Below are positions 43,374 through 51,201 of a stretch of 64,000 nt of DNA, piece after piece (position 1 is the first letter of the stretch; each line of letters opens with the position of its first letter). The DNA is from Thermotomaculum hydrothermale (lineage in GTDB: Bacteria; Acidobacteriota; Holophagae; Thermotomaculales; Thermotomaculaceae). The notes below the pieces were generated by a model. The model was given only the letters and a program-made list of their open reading frames with translations, ran no database searches and was not told where the DNA came from. Both the position numbers and the translations under genes were made by a program. Where the stretch lies: positions 248,001 through 312,000 of the forward strand of contig NZ_AP017470.1 in assembly GCF_016592575.1 (NCBI RefSeq), in the 5' to 3' direction.

Positions 43374-44174
43374 ATGGTAAAAATAGTTGCAAGCGATATT
43401 GGCGGCACTTTAACAAATAATGAAAACAGAATTTCCGATTTTACAAAAAAGGTAATCCACACCCTTCCTGTCCCCTTTTGCTTTGTGACGGGGTTTAACA
43501 GGTTTATAGCCTTTAAATACTTTGATATGGTGGGGAAGGAAGATGCCTATATGATTGCCCAGAACGGGGCTTTTGTTTATCACGGCAGAAAGCTTTTAAT
43601 GTACTCACTGCTTGATAAAAGGTTTGTAAAGGCAATCGTTGATTTTGGACTGGAAAACAATTGCATAGCGAGGGTGTTTTGCACAGACAACAATGTGTAT
43701 TGCTTTGTGCCTGAAGATTACAATGAAGAACCGTTAAGGTGGGATAAGCCGATTTACAGGATTTTCAAGGGAAGTGTTGAAGATTTGCCTTCAGATGTAA
43801 TTCAGGTGGGATTTTTTGAAAGGGTTGAAAAGATTGAGAAAATAACTGAAAAAGCCATTGAAAAATTTGGTGAAATTGTAATGTTTGGCCCCAGACTATA
43901 CGGCACCCACCAGTGGCTTGAGTTTAACAATCCTGGGGCAAAAAAACACATAGCATTTAAAAAACTTGCAGAATACTTAAAGATTGATTTGAAAGATGCA
44001 ATTTACTGTGGTGACAATTACAACGATATTGAATTGTTGAAAATAGTTGGTGAGCCGGTGGTTGTTGGAGATGCAGATGATGAGATAAAGAAGTACGCAA
44101 AACATGTTGTTGATGCAGGTTACAACGACGGGGTGGCAAAGTTTCTTGTTGAATACTTCAACCTTAAAATTTAA
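43374..44174 (+). CDS. HAD-superfamily (Cof-like, IIB) hydrolase with altered motif I
   Basis: 266 residues. Fold motifs: motif I SDIGGTLT (Asp8), motif II FVTGFNR, motif III Lys region (AKKHIAFKKLAEYL) and motif IV YCGDNYNDIELL. The cap region matches class IIB sugar phosphatases. The second Asp of motif I (DxD) is Gly here, which normally provides acid/base catalysis for phosphatases, so activity may be changed or weak. TATTTT ends 7 nt before the ATG and no Shine-Dalgarno is visible. Convergent with the ureohydrolase gene, stops overlapping by 4 nt. Confidence 0.82.
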   Translation: MVKIVASDIGGTLTNNENRISDFTKKVIHTLPVPFCFVTGFNRFIAFKYFDMVGKEDAYMIAQNGAFVYHGRKLLMYSLLDKRFVKAIVDFGLENNCIARVFCTDNNVYCFVPEDYNEEPLRWDKPIYRIFKGSVEDLPSDVIQVGFFERVEKIEKITEKAIEKFGEIVMFGPRLYGTHQWLEFNNPGAKKHIAFKKLAEYLKIDLKDAIYCGDNYNDIELLKIVGEPVVVGDADDEIKKYAKHVVDAGYNDGVAKFLVEYFNLKI

Positions 44175-44881
44175 GAGATAAATTCTCTTCTCAAAACAGG
44201 TGCTTTTGTTAGTGCTTTTAAAAGCATGTTGTTTATCTTTTCGCTTTTTTGAATGTCAAACAGGTTGAAATCATCAGGTTCACCGCAAATATCAGCCCCT
44301 AAAATCTTTTCTTTCGGGATAATTTCAAGCAATTCAACAATCATTTCAGGGGAGAAATTCCCACCGTCCCAGTTTGTTTTAAGGAATTTTTCATCAAGAA
44401 TATCTTTATCAATTGATACATAAATCCTTTTTTCATTCTCCAATTCTTTTTCAAGTGCATCAGGGTTAAAGTCAATCACTTTAATTTTCGTGTTATTGGT
44501 TGATTCAATTTCTGGTTTAATAACTATAATTTTTTTAAGTAAAGGCAAGGTAATTGCATTGTTTAACCACGAACCGCAAGATATAAAATTTTTATCAAAT
44601 ACAGGCTGATTATCAAGGTGATTATCAAAAACAACGAGGGTAAACTCCTCTTTTATCCTTTTCAAAAATAGATAACTTAAATAGTGATAATCCCCTTTGC
44701 CTAAAAAGGTAATTAAGTGTTGTTTTTGTGGCAGTTTTTCTTCAATCCTCTTTAAAGTTTCAAATGTGGCCATTAGTTTTTTTTCAGGAATATCCCTTAA
44801 ATCAACACACTTAGCTTTTTTAAGAATGGATTTTTGCAGCAAGTAAGAGTTTTCTGTGTGCAATATGAGTACTGAAAACAT
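44171..44881 (-). CDS. Arginase/agmatinase-family (ureohydrolase) protein
   Basis: 236 residues, shorter than typical family members (about 290-320). Metal motifs are recognisable: GKGDYHYLSY in place of GGDHS, VFDNHLDNQP in place of DAHxD, and YVSIDKDILDEKF for SxDxDxxDP, with ADICGEPDD near the end. It may hydrolyse a guanidino compound or a related amide; substrate unknown because the specificity loops are short. The gene stands before the accessory island, transcribed away from it. Confidence 0.78.
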   Translation of the reverse strand: MFSVLILHTENSYLLQKSILKKAKCVDLRDIPEKKLMATFETLKRIEEKLPQKQHLITFLGKGDYHYLSYLFLKRIKEEFTLVVFDNHLDNQPVFDKNFISCGSWLNNAITLPLLKKIIVIKPEIESTNNTKIKVIDFNPDALEKELENEKRIYVSIDKDILDEKFLKTNWDGGNFSPEMIVELLEIIPKEKILGADICGEPDDFNLFDIQKSEKINNMLLKALTKAPVLRREFIS

Positions 44882-45321: not shown

Positions 45322-46587
45322 ATGAGAGTAAATAGTAAGCAATTGACTTATCTAGAATTATTCGCCGGGGCAGGTGGACTGGCCGAGGGCTTTTCAAGTG
45401 CCGGATTTACGCCAGTAGCATATGTAGAAATGGACAGATATGCCTCACTTACTCTTAAAACGCGAATTGTTTATCATTATCTTGTAAAAAAAGGAAAAGC
45501 GGGTATTTACACAAAATATTTGCAAAAGAAAATATCAAGAGAAGAACTTTATGGAATGGTCCCTAATATTGAATTAAACACAGTTATAAATGAAGAAATT
45601 AGTGAAGAAAATATTTACTATTTGATAGGTGTGATTCAGAATAAAATGAAACAGAAAAAAATAGAGAATGTAGATGTGATAGTTGGTGGGCCGCCCTGTC
45701 AGGCATACTCTCTTATTGGAAGAGCCAGGGATCCATACAGGATGAAAAATGATAGAAGAAATTACCTTTATCAGCTTTATGTTAAATTTCTGGAGGTGTT
45801 TAAACCAAAGGTTTTTGTATTTGAAAATGTCCCGGGATTGCTTTCAGCAGGGAATGGGAAACTATGGGAAGATGTGCAAAGGTATTTCAAAGAAGCGGGA
45901 TTTAAAATAGAATATAAAATCTTAAATGCCTATGATTTTGGTGTGTTACAAAACAGAAAAAGGATTATTGTTATTGGGTGGAGGATAGAATTAAATCTAG
46001 AATATCCTGAATTTGAAAAAGATTCCTATGTCGAAAAGTTCAATGTTAAGGAAGTATTTAAAGATCTTCCCCCTCTAAAACCCGGCGAAAAAATGTATAC
46101 TGGTGAATACATTGGAGAACCTTCTGAATATTTAAAATACTATGGGATAAGAAACAATGATGATATTCTCACCCTGCATATTGCAAGAAATCACAATGAA
46201 AGAGACAGGAGAATCTATAAATTATATATTGAAGCATGGATGAAAGAAAAAAGAAGGCCCGAATATAATGAACTGCCGGAAGAGCTTAAAACGCATAGAA
46301 ACAGAAAGGCATTTAAAGATAGATTTAAAGTTGTTGCTCCTGATTTACCATATTCTCAGACTATTGTAGCCCACCTTGGTAAAGATGGACATTATTTTAT
46401 ACATCCGGATATAAATCAACTTCGCTCAATTTCGGTAAGAGAGGCTGCCAGATTGCAATCTTTTCCGGATAATTTTTACTTTGAAGGACCCATGACTGCA
46501 ATGTTCCGTCAGATAGGAAACGCCGTTCCTCCGCTTATGGCACAAAAAATTGCTGAAAAAATAAAGGAGATGATAAATGCTTTATAA
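45322..46587 (+). CDS. DNA (cytosine-5)-methyltransferase
   Basis: 421 residues with all C5-methylase motifs: I (LELFAGAGGLAEGF), IV (VGGPPCQAYS, catalytic Cys126), VI (FVFENVPGLL), VIII (LQNRKRIIVIG), IX (REAARLQSFPD) and X (RQIGNAVPPLMA). The stretch between motifs I and IV is long (about 100 residues with charged helices). It transfers a methyl group from S-adenosylmethionine to cytosine C5 in a target that the variable region (about 240-350) recognises; the target cannot be read from sequence. First large gene of a four-gene operon with a GHKL/histidine-kinase protein, a receiver-like protein and a T:G glycosylase. It overlaps the next gene by 11 nt. No endonuclease gene adjoins it. Confidence 0.95.
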   Translation: MRVNSKQLTYLELFAGAGGLAEGFSSAGFTPVAYVEMDRYASLTLKTRIVYHYLVKKGKAGIYTKYLQKKISREELYGMVPNIELNTVINEEISEENIYYLIGVIQNKMKQKKIENVDVIVGGPPCQAYSLIGRARDPYRMKNDRRNYLYQLYVKFLEVFKPKVFVFENVPGLLSAGNGKLWEDVQRYFKEAGFKIEYKILNAYDFGVLQNRKRIIVIGWRIELNLEYPEFEKDSYVEKFNVKEVFKDLPPLKPGEKMYTGEYIGEPSEYLKYYGIRNNDDILTLHIARNHNERDRRIYKLYIEAWMKEKRRPEYNELPEELKTHRNRKAFKDRFKVVAPDLPYSQTIVAHLGKDGHYFIHPDINQLRSISVREAARLQSFPDNFYFEGPMTAMFRQIGNAVPPLMAQKIAEKIKEMINAL

Positions 46588-48769
46588 AGATGAACTCTCT
46601 TTTAGACCCAGGGCAAGGTTAATTAAGATAATTGGAGAACAACTTATATCCAGTGAGGTCATCGCGCTTGTAGAACTGGTTAGAAATTCTTATGATGCTG
46701 ATGCAACTGAAGTATTTATTAAATTAATTGATATACAGAATCCTGAGAAAGGAAAGATAATAATAGAAGATAATGGAACAGGAATGAGTCTTGAAAAAAT
46801 CAGGAATGTATGGTTAGAACCTGCCACACCTGATAAGAAAATGGAAGAATGCAAAAGATATAGCAAGTGTTTTAACAGAAAATTACTTGGAGAAAAAGGG
46901 ATCGGGAGATTTGCTGTGCATAAACTTGGAGAAAAAGTTAAATTAGTTACCAGAGCAACTATTGACTGCTTTGGAACTCTGGAAAATTATGAAACAGTGG
47001 TAGATATTAATTGGAATAAATTTTCTGAGGATAAGTATCTTGATGAAGTTAAAATAGAAATTGAAACTAGAACTCCTCAATATTTTTTGCAAAGGGGTGG
47101 AGTATATATAGAAATATCGAATATAAATCCATGGAAAGTGTCAACAATAGTAAATACAGTACGAAAACTTAAAGCACTTGAATCTCCTGATATTATTAGA
47201 AGAAGTGATAATTCTGATGGAAGCAAAACCGGTCAATTTAAGATGAAAATAGCGAGTAATAACTCTGAAATTCAGAAAGAAATAGATGCTGTCAAAAGTA
47301 TAAATGTTCTTCTTGAGTCAGCTTTTTATAAAATTCATGGAGTAGTAGATGAACAAGGCATTTTACACTTCACTTATTCATTCAATAGACCAGATTATCC
47401 AGAGCTTTCAAGAAGTATCCCGGGGGGAAAAATTGATTTAAAAGAATTCATCCTAAATTTTTTAGAGGAACTAAAAAAACTTTACGAGTCTAAGAACGAA
47501 ACTAATAAAGAGAAAAATCAAAAGAATTTTTATAAAGATATTTTTCCTGGCAAGTTTTATGTGGATTTTTATGTATGGGATCTTGATTCATCAGCTTTAA
47601 AAGTAGCAGGATTGCAGATGGAATACAAGACTGTTATCAAACCAAATGCAGGCGTTAGGGTTTATCGTGATGGATTCAGAGTTTGGCCTTACGGTGAAGA
47701 AGATGATGATTGGCTTGGGTTAGACCTCAGGAGATTAAACGCCCCAAAGGAAAGATTAATCAGCAGGAATCAAATAGTAGGATTTATAAATATATCTTCT
47801 GAAAGAAATCCACTGCTTATTGATCAGTCCAACAGAGAGGGATTGATAAAAAATACTCAATACGAGGTTTTCTACGAACTTGTGAAAGCTTCTCTAAAGC
47901 ATATGTCCAACCTTCGGAAGCAGGATAAAACAAAGATGGATAAAGCAAAAGAAAAGAGTAAATATGACGATGAGGTTACTCAAACTATTTCTAATCTTAA
48001 AAATAAGTTAAGAAGGAACAAGCATTATGATCTCTATAAAGAGGACGTAGAAAAAATTGAAAAGGTCTACAAAGAAAGAGTAACAGATATTCTGGATAGA
48101 TATATGCAGGCAGCTGCAATAGGAATTAGCTATACACTCCCTGTTCATGAATTGAATATCAGGTTTAAATCAATCAATTCTTTAATAAAAGAAATAGAAA
48201 AGAATCCTTTGTTTTTAAATGATTATATACGAGAACTGGAGAATTTAATTGAAAATACGCAGAATATAGTAAAAGCAATTGGTAATTTGATGCAAAGAAA
48301 GAAACGAAAAGAGGTTCTTCTATTAAAGGTTGTTAAAAATGCTATCAAAATAAAAGAAAGGGAATTAAAAGAATTTGATATTAAAGTTTCAATTGTCGGA
48401 GATCTCCAGCAAAAGGCAGTTATAATTGAGAATCTTGTAGGTACAGCCTTTCTTAATTTGGTAGATAATGCTATTTACTGGATCCGTGTGAAAAGAATGC
48501 AACTAAGAGAAAAAGGGATTTATTACAAAGGTATCATAGAAATAATATTGGGCGAAGAAGATGATAGACCTTTTATTACCATCAAAGATAATGGGACAGG
48601 TATAAAGGATCCAATTGAAATGCTCAAAGAACCTTACTACAGCAGGAAAGAGAATGGTTATGGACTCGGATTATATATTGTGGATAATATTATGACAAGG
48701 CATAATGGAAAGCTAGAAGCAAAAAATTGGAAAGAAGGAGCTGTTTTTAAATTAATATTTGAAAAATAA
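46577..48769 (+). CDS. GHKL ATPase fused to a histidine-kinase core
   Basis: 730 residues. The N-terminal GHKL domain is of the HSP90/MutL/MORC kind: N-box ELVRNSYDADA (34-44), G1 DNGTGM (65-70), G2 GEKGIGRFAVHKLG. A beta-rich middle follows (about 130-470; a transducer-like part with GVRVYRDGFRVWPYG). Residues about 510-580 form a DHp-like helical hairpin with an H-box LPVHELN (His524). The C-terminal HATPase is of kinase type: N-box LNLVDNAIYW, G1 KDNGTGI, G2 GYGLGLYIV. There is no membrane segment, so it is cytosolic. The next gene, 18 nt away, encodes a receiver-like protein, a natural phosphorelay partner. GHKL proteins of the MORC/paraMORC type are known neighbours of restriction-modification genes; the double ATPase is the unusual part. 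Confidence 0.88.
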   Translation: MLYKDELSFRPRARLIKIIGEQLISSEVIALVELVRNSYDADATEVFIKLIDIQNPEKGKIIIEDNGTGMSLEKIRNVWLEPATPDKKMEECKRYSKCFNRKLLGEKGIGRFAVHKLGEKVKLVTRATIDCFGTLENYETVVDINWNKFSEDKYLDEVKIEIETRTPQYFLQRGGVYIEISNINPWKVSTIVNTVRKLKALESPDIIRRSDNSDGSKTGQFKMKIASNNSEIQKEIDAVKSINVLLESAFYKIHGVVDEQGILHFTYSFNRPDYPELSRSIPGGKIDLKEFILNFLEELKKLYESKNETNKEKNQKNFYKDIFPGKFYVDFYVWDLDSSALKVAGLQMEYKTVIKPNAGVRVYRDGFRVWPYGEEDDDWLGLDLRRLNAPKERLISRNQIVGFINISSERNPLLIDQSNREGLIKNTQYEVFYELVKASLKHMSNLRKQDKTKMDKAKEKSKYDDEVTQTISNLKNKLRRNKHYDLYKEDVEKIEKVYKERVTDILDRYMQAAAIGISYTLPVHELNIRFKSINSLIKEIEKNPLFLNDYIRELENLIENTQNIVKAIGNLMQRKKRKEVLLLKVVKNAIKIKERELKEFDIKVSIVGDLQQKAVIIENLVGTAFLNLVDNAIYWIRVKRMQLREKGIYYKGIIEIILGEEDDRPFITIKDNGTGIKDPIEMLKEPYYSRKENGYGLGLYIVDNIMTRHNGKLEAKNWKEGAVFKLIFEK

Positions 48770-48787: not shown

Positions 48788-50236
48788 ATGATTCCAGGGA
48801 GTGCTCTGATAGTAGATGATAGATTAGAGCAGATAAAAGATTGTCTTAAAAATTCAAAAACTCTACTAAAATCAGAAAAAGAAGATATTAACAAAAAATT
48901 GGAAAACAAAGAATTAAATAAGCTTTTGGAGCTTATTTTGTATCTTAATCGAAAAGGTATACCTGTTACAATGTTTTCTTCAAATGATATTAATAATTTT
49001 GAGAATCTTATTAAAAACACTCGAAATATAAGACTCGTCTTTCTTGACCTCGATATAGACGGCGATGGAAAGGTTACTGATACTGATGAAGAAGTCATCA
49101 AACGTTTCATTGAAATATTAATAAAAAATCAAGGGTATTTCTTCCTATTTATTTTATCCAATCATAAAGAAAAATGGGAAAATGATATAAAGAGTGATTT
49201 AATACAAAAATATGAGTTTTTAAATCATATGAGTGGGGAACTGGACAAACAGGAAGATGTATTTAGTGTTATTTCAAACAAAATAAGAGAATTAAATTCC
49301 TTAAATATTATATATAGTTTTGAAAAAGAACTTAATAAAGCTCGTGATATCGTTGCAAAAAAATTTGTTGAATTTAATAAAGAAACTTGGGAATACCTTA
49401 TTTCTAAACAAAAAAAAGAAGTAGGAGATTTATGGGAATTTGAAATGATTACCTTATTGCTAAATTTGATAAAGCAAAGTATGGAAAAAAGTAAAGTGTT
49501 CTTACGCCACTCTAACAATGATAATCAAGAAAATAATAATAGAGATAATAATAAAGAAGATTATGATAATAATAAGAATAACAATGATAATCAAGAAAAT
49601 AATGGTGATGAATCATATGATATTGAAATGATAAGTAAAATCTATAGAAGTTTTAATTATGTAGAGAATGTACCTAGCACTGTCATTTTTACTGGAAATC
49701 TATACAAAACTAATAAAAATGATGTAGAAAAAGAGTATGCTCTTATTTTGACTCCTGAATGTGACATAGCTCAAAGTAAAAATATAGATAGATATGTAGT
49801 GGTCTATGGATTTAATGTTAATGATAACTTTAACAACTCTTATAATAGAACCGATGATAATGTCCCTATATTTGTTAAGAGGGCTGGAAGGGATAGAAAT
49901 AATTCTGAGAAATGGAAAAGTTTCAACTCTCTCAATAAAATAAAAAATCCAAATCAATATATTTATTTGCTTCCATTTGCAATTGAAGAAGGTAAGAATA
50001 GCAATGGCCAAAAAAAAATCTATAAGCATATAGGATTGGATTTTAGAATAATAGAGTCAATATCTGCAAATAAAATGTATAGCTGGAAATTAAAATTAAG
50101 AGTCAATGACCCATTAATGGTGGATATTCAGAATAAATTCTCAAATCTTTTTAACAGAAAAGGAATACCATCACTATTACCAGAGAAAATGAAATTAATA
50201 TATGAAAAAACAGACGAAGATAAAACAAGTTCATAA
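48788..50236 (+). CDS. Receiver-like protein with Asn-rich linker and unknown C-terminal domain
   Basis: 482 residues with AAAGGGGG before the ATG. Residues 1-150 read as a response-regulator receiver: ALIVDD (Asp10, Asp11), RLVFLDLDI (likely phospho-Asp87), FLFILSN (Ser124). Asp87 is directly followed by DIDGDGKVTDTD, which fits an EF-hand/dockerin calcium loop. The segment between the acid pair and Asp87 is longer than usual. After a helical part, residues about 243-275 are an Asn/Asp/Glu linker with an internal repeat. The C-terminal domain (about 290-465) has ALILTPECDIAQSK, YIYLLPFAIEE, GLDFRIIESI and FNRKGIPSLLP; I do not recognise an enzyme. It is the candidate effector of the locus. 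It overlaps the glycosylase gene by 35 nt. Confidence 0.75.
   Translation: MIPGSALIVDDRLEQIKDCLKNSKTLLKSEKEDINKKLENKELNKLLELILYLNRKGIPVTMFSSNDINNFENLIKNTRNIRLVFLDLDIDGDGKVTDTDEEVIKRFIEILIKNQGYFFLFILSNHKEKWENDIKSDLIQKYEFLNHMSGELDKQEDVFSVISNKIRELNSLNIIYSFEKELNKARDIVAKKFVEFNKETWEYLISKQKKEVGDLWEFEMITLLLNLIKQSMEKSKVFLRHSNNDNQENNNRDNNKEDYDNNKNNNDNQENNGDESYDIEMISKIYRSFNYVENVPSTVIFTGNLYKTNKNDVEKEYALILTPECDIAQSKNIDRYVVVYGFNVNDNFNNSYNRTDDNVPIFVKRAGRDRNNSEKWKSFNSLNKIKNPNQYIYLLPFAIEEGKNSNGQKKIYKHIGLDFRIIESISANKMYSWKLKLRVNDPLMVDIQNKFSNLFNRKGIPSLLPEKMKLIYEKTDEDKTSS
49513..49603 (+). repeat. 25-nt direct repeat in the Asn-rich linker
   Basis: The same 25 nt, beginning TAACAATGATAATC, occur at 49513-49537 and 49579-49603, 66 nt apart and in the same reading frame, with AATAAT-rich DNA between them. 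Loss or gain of one unit would keep the frame. Confidence 0.85.
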
Positions 50237-50870
50237 TAATATTCTGGATTGGTTCAATCAATACGCCCGTGATTTCCCTTGGAGACATACAAAAGATCCC
50301 TATAAAATAATGATTGCAGAGTTTATGCTTCATAGAACAAGAGCGGAACAGGTTGTGCCAGTGTATAATGAATTTACAAAAAAATATCCAGATGTGTTTG
50401 CCCTGGTTTGCGCAAATTCAGATGATATAAGAAAGGTTACTGAGCATCTAGGACTTCACTGGAGAAGTGAACATTTTATAAAGTCTGCAAAATACATTGT
50501 AGAAAAACATAATGGTGAACTCCCTGAAGATTATAAAGATCTAAGAAAAATACCGGGTATTGGTGAATACATTGCTGGTGCTATATTAACAGTGTGTTTC
50601 AATAAACCCACTCCTGTTGTTGACAGTAATATAGCGCGGTTTATAAACAGGTTTTATGGATTGAATCTGAAAGGAGAAATCAGAAGAAAAAAAGAAATTG
50701 TACAGAAAGCTAAAGAAATATTTAATCATGATAACCCTGGTCAGTTACTGTTTGCAATGGTGGATTTTACCGCCCTTGTATGCAAACCACAAAAACCGAA
50801 TTGTGATTCCTGCCCTTTAAAGTTTTTATGCAGTCTAAACAAAGAGCAAAAGATAGTGGAAGAAAGTTGA
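50202..50870 (+). CDS. T:G mismatch DNA glycosylase (Mig/EndoIII-MutY superfamily)
   Basis: 222 residues of the HhH-GPD family. ARDFPWRHTKDPYKIMIAE begins the fold, the helix-hairpin-helix is KIPGIGEYIAGAI, the catalytic Asp is 141 (VVDSNIARF), and the Fe-S cluster is C194-X6-C201-X2-C204-X5-C210. At the position of the EndoIII lyase Lys the residue is Tyr123, as in Mig.MthI, the thymine-DNA glycosylase beside a GGCC methylase in Methanothermobacter; MutY has Ser there and a different MLQQT motif, here MLHRT. It should remove T from T:G pairs formed by deamination of 5-methylcytosine, protecting the host of the adjacent methylase. It starts inside the previous gene. Confidence 0.88.
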   Translation: MKKQTKIKQVHNNILDWFNQYARDFPWRHTKDPYKIMIAEFMLHRTRAEQVVPVYNEFTKKYPDVFALVCANSDDIRKVTEHLGLHWRSEHFIKSAKYIVEKHNGELPEDYKDLRKIPGIGEYIAGAILTVCFNKPTPVVDSNIARFINRFYGLNLKGEIRRKKEIVQKAKEIFNHDNPGQLLFAMVDFTALVCKPQKPNCDSCPLKFLCSLNKEQKIVEES

Positions 50871-51099: not shown

Positions 51100-51167
51100 T
51101 TTTGAAGGAAGTGGGAGTGGGTATAACGGATTTTCTGGAATTAACAATTTTAAATTAAATAGAATAG

Positions 51168-51201
51168 GGTGTTCTTCGGTTAAGAAGAACACCTTTTTTT
51201 T
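51168..51201 (+). terminator. Rho-independent terminator after the tRNA
   Basis: A 9-bp stem GGTGTTCTT / AAGAACACC with an 8-nt loop and eight T. The T tract runs directly into the ribosome binding site of the next gene. Confidence 0.92.

Follow-up and report, generated by a model that had tools for sequence, protein, structure and literature searches.

A 730-residue protein encoded within a 64,000-nucleotide stretch of the Thermotomaculum hydrothermale genome (contig NZ_AP017470.1; hereafter the window) carries two separate GHKL modules in one chain, an arrangement far beyond chance. The N-terminal module resembles MORC/Hsp90-type ATPases, and the C-terminal module belongs to a histidine-kinase core. 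Sequence and structure prediction together give the order of these domains, the preservation of their active-site residues, the homologous relationship of the core to known histidine kinases, a partner gene for a response regulator, the operon in which both genes lie, and its patchy spread. The explanation that we favor, and hold to be reasonably probable, is that of a two-component system of the cytoplasm, linked to a methylation cassette, with its His-Asp phosphorelay under the control of an ATP-driven DNA clamp. Here, a soluble histidine kinase would have a MORC/Hsp90-type ATPase as its sensor and, as its partner, the regulator encoded by the next gene of a mobile cytosine-methylation cassette. 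The kinase gene and its parts are located in the window as follows.

46577..48769, + strand: hybrid GHKL-ATPase/histidine kinase, 730 residues (open reading frame call, Pfam, structural model and conservation).
46661..47017, + strand: N-terminal GHKL ATPase domain, residues 29-147, with a hydrolytic-type Glu (E33), N37 and DxGxG at 65-69 (HATPase_c_3; invariant residues).
47054..47854, + strand: S5/transducer-like middle domain, about residues 160-426, with an invariant NREG arginine, R420, at 47834-47836 (model, Foldseek).
48026..48292, + strand: DHp helical hairpin, residues 484-572, with the candidate phospho-acceptor H524, a CAT codon at 48146-48148 (AlphaFold2, hhalign, conservation).
48293..48766, + strand: CA domain, residues 573-730, with N/G1/G2 boxes (HATPase_c; Foldseek match to HK853).

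Pfam assigned HATPase_c_3 to residues 29-147 (3e-20) and HATPase_c to residues 621-727 (8.6e-19), both far above the cut-offs. The N/G1/G2-type residues are E33, N37, D65, G67, G69 and G105 in the N-terminal module and N627, N631, D671, G673, G675, G694, G696 and G698 in the C-terminal module. All six of the former, together with N627, N631, G696 and G698, were present in 94/94 full-length homologues, with the proviso that 80 of the homologue loci were collected in a viral scan that used EL[VI]KNx[YF]DA as its seed, such that conservation around residues 33-41 is partly selected. The remaining four (D671, G673, G675 and G694) were each found in at least 88 of the 94. A preliminary description of this locus, made from the sequence alone, had proposed one protein with a MORC/HSP90-like ATPase, a complete kinase core and two full sets of N, G1 and G2 boxes; the two Pfam modules, the conservation of their boxes and the structural matches described below bear this out.

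The N-terminal ATPase looks catalytically complete in sequence; its Glu-x3-Asn motif (E33, N37), its DxGxG motif and its lid glycine (G105) are all invariant. R420 was likewise retained in 94/94 full-length homologues, a count unaffected by the seeding of the viral scan, and its NREG motif resembles the phosphate-contacting arginine loop of Hsp90. When solved structures were searched with Foldseek, the N-terminal half aligned with the ATPase modules of SMCHD1 and MORC2 over about 500 columns (E about 3e-10). By sequence and model, GHKL motifs I-IV and the catalytic Glu, followed by an S5-type domain, are found in the order that defines the paraMORC/GHKL-S5 proteins. Membership of the MORC family proper was considered and rejected: a regular-expression scan found its S5 motif, GhXhhpXXRhl, in none of 32 sequences.

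Sequence comparison shows the C-terminal core to be a genuine homologue of histidine-kinase cores. In hhalign, a profile of residues 480-730 matched four canonical kinases of this genome with 99.9% probability (E 3.5e-33), His being aligned on His. The ATP-binding domain could supply most of this whole-core score, and the DHp region was therefore compared alone; it returned 94.7% probability and a score of 38.3, again with H524 on the canonical phospho-His, whereas the best of 60 column-shuffled controls scored 10.8 with a probability of at most 0.4%. H524 was conserved in 94/94 full-length homologues, including distant ones from viral contigs and irrespective of the motif used to seed the viral scan, and was the sole invariant column in residues 480-626 of an alignment of residues 480-730 with 27 relatives. 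An AlphaFold2 model built from 32 sequences had a mean predicted local distance difference test (pLDDT) of 82.9, with two long helices, the first (484-542) containing H524 and the second (544-572) leading into the CA domain; Foldseek matched the DHp and CA parts best to HK853 complexes (HK853-RR468, E 4.7e-13). The attributes of a histidine protein kinase core, namely N/G1/G2 boxes in the CA domain and a DHp hairpin with the His in its first helix, are present in the alignment and in the single-chain model. The preliminary description had proposed a fold prediction of the H-box region and a search against HisKA/DHp profiles: the hairpin with His524 in helix 1 was recovered, but the four-helix bundle needs a dimer and lies beyond a single-chain model, and the similarity to canonical kinases emerged from hhalign but not from Pfam HisKA. 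Neither of the two outcomes that the preliminary description had named as refuting it was encountered.

The gene that starts 18 bases after the kinase gene encodes the putative phosphorelay partner, the parts of which are given below.

48788..50236, + strand: response-regulator-like protein, 482 residues (D10, D11, D87 and K141 in alignments).
48788..49222, + strand: receiver (REC) domain, with the phospho-acceptor candidate D87 at 49046-49048 (strand/helix order; Foldseek matches to ComE and PorX).
49673..50167, + strand: C-terminal output domain (approximately residues 296-460 of the regulator); C325-D326 and R457 are invariant (MazF/PemK-like barrel, by fold search only).

The 482-residue protein has an acidic pair after strand 1, an Asp after strand 3 and a Lys after strand 5, as expected of a receiver. 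This signature (D10, D11, D87 and K141) was invariant or at least 90% conserved in 24 sequences that share 15-24% identity, and the N-terminal part is predicted to have the alternating strand/helix order of a receiver. Foldseek placed it closest to the receivers of ComE and PorX (best E 0.028). Pfam Response_reg matched homologues of the regulator weakly and this regulator not at all, and Response_reg_2 (PF19192) matched neither the regulator nor 16 relatives at E<=0.1. The same kinase-regulator pair occurs in Campylobacter plasmids, where it is annotated as a sensor histidine kinase and a response regulator.

Several observations weigh against a working phosphorelay. Neither Pfam HisKA nor HEF_HK identified a domain in the kinase protein (HEF_HK none at E<=1), the N-P-L of canonical kinases is missing after the H-box, and the DHp part of the single-chain model is of moderate confidence (pLDDT about 57-78). 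The regulator model has a pLDDT of 64 overall, and no fold match reached E 0.001. A search of the open-licence literature returned no published phosphotransfer for any family member. The unusual motif context, with no NPL after the His, would suit a different scheme in which the C-terminal kinase fold is a dimerization device or ATP-gated scaffold that binds the regulator by contact with no transfer of phosphate, the whole being a paraMORC restriction-modification machine that acts on DNA directly. Precedents for such a machine exist: paraMORC proteins of restriction systems normally work with nucleases (Iyer, Abhiman and Aravind 2008; PMC2292703), and VcSduA, a GHKL-Shedu (paraMORC3) fusion of a GHKL module with a nuclease, protects against phage (PMC12137116). 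A pure scaffold would need neither H524 nor the CA boxes, which are conserved in all or nearly all of the 94 homologues, and the D-D-D-K set kept by the partner receiver would be superfluous to it. Because conservation extends to both active sites that such a relay would use, the scaffold scheme is the less likely one, and we regard it as unlikely.

The C-terminal domain of the regulator repeatedly resembled MazF/PemK in fold searches of the PDB and of a viral library (6kyt_J, probability 1.00, TM 0.70 by target length). The recurrence of these structures would fit a suicide or dormancy defence in which the phosphorylated regulator frees a MazF/PemK-like activity of this domain. Homology to MazF/PemK was nevertheless rejected, because no fold match fell below E 0.001 and an hhalign comparison with 28 PemK sequences gave a probability of 0.3, within the range of shuffled controls. 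Furthermore, the catalytic Arg of MazF (R29, aligned by eye) has no conserved counterpart in the regulator, where the invariant residues are instead C325-D326 and R457. A toxin-like output is consequently very improbable, and the predicted MazF/PemK-like barrel may be taken as a lead only.

Two further observations concern the regulator. Residues about 240-285 (49500-49650), between the receiver and the output domain, form a low-complexity tract rich in Asn, Asp and Glu (NNDNQENNNRDNNKEDYDNN...) that is absent from aligned relatives. At two loci in other genomes of the phylum (L137 and L138), proteins that match the output domain alone adjoin Vsr and, at L138, also a kinase of the present type; in these two proteins the receiver half is either too diverged for recognition or absent.

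The kinase and regulator genes are the second and third of a four-gene operon that runs from a C5 methyltransferase to a glycosylase; these neighbors, the regulator included, were overlooked in the preliminary description. The flanking members and a possible operon end are as follows.

45322..46587, + strand: C-5 cytosine DNA methyltransferase, 421 residues, gene 1 of the operon (Pfam DNA_methylase 1.1e-64; dcm TIGR00675; top PADLOC model DrmMII, 580 bits).
50202..50870, + strand: MutY/MIG-type DNA glycosylase (HhH-GPD), 222 residues (mutY 2.9e-54; PDB 1kea 3.9e-38).
51166..51195, + strand: terminator-like hairpin and T run, a possible operon end (a weak signal, the scan finding 3 against 2.6 expected by chance).

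The kinase reading frame is open; it starts with ATG and overlaps the methyltransferase gene by 11 bases, and the start of the glycosylase gene overlaps the end of the regulator gene. Promoter and terminator scans were at about chance level. No restriction enzyme is present in the four-gene operon as a separate gene. PADLOC defence-system models matched neither the kinase nor the regulator. DISARM was rejected as an assignment: the methyltransferase scores with DrmMII, but the drmA, drmB and drmC partners are absent among the open reading frames between 41.5 and 54.6 kb.

The glycosylase has Tyr123 at the helix-hairpin-helix position (IPGIGEY) and Asp141. Methanothermobacter MIG likewise combines a Tyr at this position with a C5-methyltransferase neighbor. 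The HhH-GPD fold, the Asp, the Tyr and the C5-methyltransferase partner of a MIG-type enzyme are all present, and MutY structures outscore 1kea. The two systems are alike in placing an HhH-GPD glycosylase beside a C5-methyltransferase, MIG being a thymine-DNA glycosylase of G-T mismatch repair (PDB 1kea), and differ in that the enzyme described here is part of a kinase/regulator operon. The same Tyr occurs in a relative encoded by a Caldicellulosiruptor plasmid, which also lies beside a C5-methyltransferase, and in many related loci the place of the glycosylase is occupied by Vsr. PADLOC matched the glycosylase to its REase_II nicking endonuclease model (131 bits). Because the genome encodes a second glycosylase of the superfamily elsewhere, 25% identical to this one, the operon copy is probably dedicated to the operon.

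Homologues of the kinase were found in 9/396 genomes of the phylum, this genome counted, and on plasmids of many genera. Relatives also lie on at least 104 IMG/VR viral contigs, many of them beside C5-methyltransferases (L052-L131 among the loci); these were recovered by an alignment-based scan, which gave 104 matches where a single-protein query gave 0. The kinase system is frequent in prophages. By contrast, none of the genus or family relatives examined has the hybrid kinase. Two sister species have both flanks, the left one up to 44902 and the right one from 50990 onward, and lack the segment in between; the flanks are rearranged in G205 and lie on a short contig in G396, such that the absence of the operon is established but the exact junction is not. 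An arginase-family protein of 236 residues (44171-44881), bordering the inserted operon on its left, is conserved in both sister species.

Among 98 non-redundant loci, a regulator recognized by the profile model of this analysis adjoins the kinase in 36, a C5-methyltransferase lies within 4 kb in 48 and Vsr within 4 kb in 25; the corresponding numbers for the closest 44 loci are 33, 29 and 17. The whole four-gene order, glycosylase included, recurs in one other genome only (L025), where identity to the present operon is 69% for the methyltransferase, 69% for the glycosylase, 33% for the kinase and about 23-26% for the regulator. The two signaling genes have either diverged at a far higher rate or been exchanged.

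So tight an operon would also suit an ordinary transcriptional circuit, in which the kinase would sense a cell state (methylation status or ATP, for example) and the regulator would tune the expression of the methyltransferase operon, with no role against invaders. Nucleotide-level sensing or control of restriction-modification genes was suggested for related proteins in 2021 (PMC8011034). Such a circuit seems quite unlikely here: Pfam, structure prediction and fold search recognized no DNA-binding domain in the regulator, the operon contains no restriction enzyme to be controlled, and dissemination by phages and plasmids is indicative of a conflict with mobile elements.

Proteins that join a MORC-type ATPase and a kinase core have been known since 2021 and are common among bacteria and prophages. 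Bellieny-Rabelo et al. described fusions of HATPase_c_3, DHp and HATPase_c, with both ATPase domains in 174/222 sequences, a receiver-like gene adjacent in 91.6% of regions, and C5-methyltransferases, often with Vsr, nearby; they proposed a two-component system tied to restriction-modification and derived from paraMORCs (PMC8011034). In the present alignment, HATPase_c was found in 26/26 relatives and HATPase_c_3 in 25/26 (the window included), and together with the published count this contradicts the preliminary statement that most family members have only one of the two parts. The published HEF_HK/Response_reg_2 elements (PF19191/PF19192) share with this locus the domain order, the soluble character, the adjacent receiver gene, the upstream C5-methyltransferase and the downstream repair gene. 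They differ in that this kinase and regulator score on neither profile and in that the repair gene is here a MIG/MutY-type glycosylase rather than Vsr. HEF_HK matched 4/26 relatives weakly, three of which, listed singly, fell below the 24.1-bit cut-off. From its position outside the published profiles and these weak matches in distant relatives, it follows by sequence comparison that the kinase is a diverged branch of the same architecture.

The paraMORC families have a similar N-terminal GHKL and S5-type module and similar restriction-modification neighborhoods with Dcm and Vsr, whereas their C-terminal extension is a nuclease, TIR or HxH domain (PMC2292703) and not a histidine-kinase core. 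VcSduA, which needs its catalytic Glu E27, also begins with a GHKL ATPase that is believed to control the effector at its C terminus; that effector is a DUF4263 nuclease, in place of which a kinase core and a separate regulator are found here (PMC12137116). Thermotoga HK853-RR468 shares the DHp and CA fold, the first-helix His followed by Glu, and the separate receiver protein. HK853 is a conventional sensor kinase; in the present protein the sensor slot is taken by a second ATPase.

The phosphorelay that we favor may be pictured as follows. The kinase dimer would be held together by the DHp helices, and ATP binding would turn the N-terminal GHKL and S5 module into a closed clamp around what is probably DNA or a DNA-protein complex. 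Opening and closing of the clamp would shift the long helices (427-542) and so switch autophosphorylation of H524 by the CA domain; that a DNA clamp might govern kinase output directly, as already raised in the preliminary description, is plausible. The phosphate would then pass from H524 to D87 of the neighboring regulator, with the C-terminal domain of the latter as output. The methyltransferase would mark host DNA, and the MIG/MutY-type glycosylase would repair T:G mismatches arising from deamination of 5-methylcytosine, the job of Vsr in related operons. The triggering signal might be unmethylated or invading DNA, which is a guess. Phosphotransfer, clamp action on DNA, the signal, the glycosylase substrate and any role in defence are what we infer. 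A fuller version, in which foreign or unmethylated DNA engages the clamp ATPase, H524 is phosphorylated and a regulator with a MazF-like barrel responds, would amount to restriction-like immunity with a two-component system replacing the restriction enzyme of the cassette; we consider it distinctly improbable. A search of the open-licence literature returned no report of DNA binding or phage protection by family members.

Fusions of a MORC-type ATPase and a kinase are widespread in bacteria, plasmids and prophages, beside DNA methyltransferases, and no published experimental test of them was found in the same literature. The locus described here is compact, having four genes and lacking a separate restriction enzyme in the operon, which makes it a convenient test case. 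If the phosphorelay is real, this would be a two-component system that reads the state of DNA rather than small molecules, and it would reveal the role of the prokaryotic relatives of MORC.

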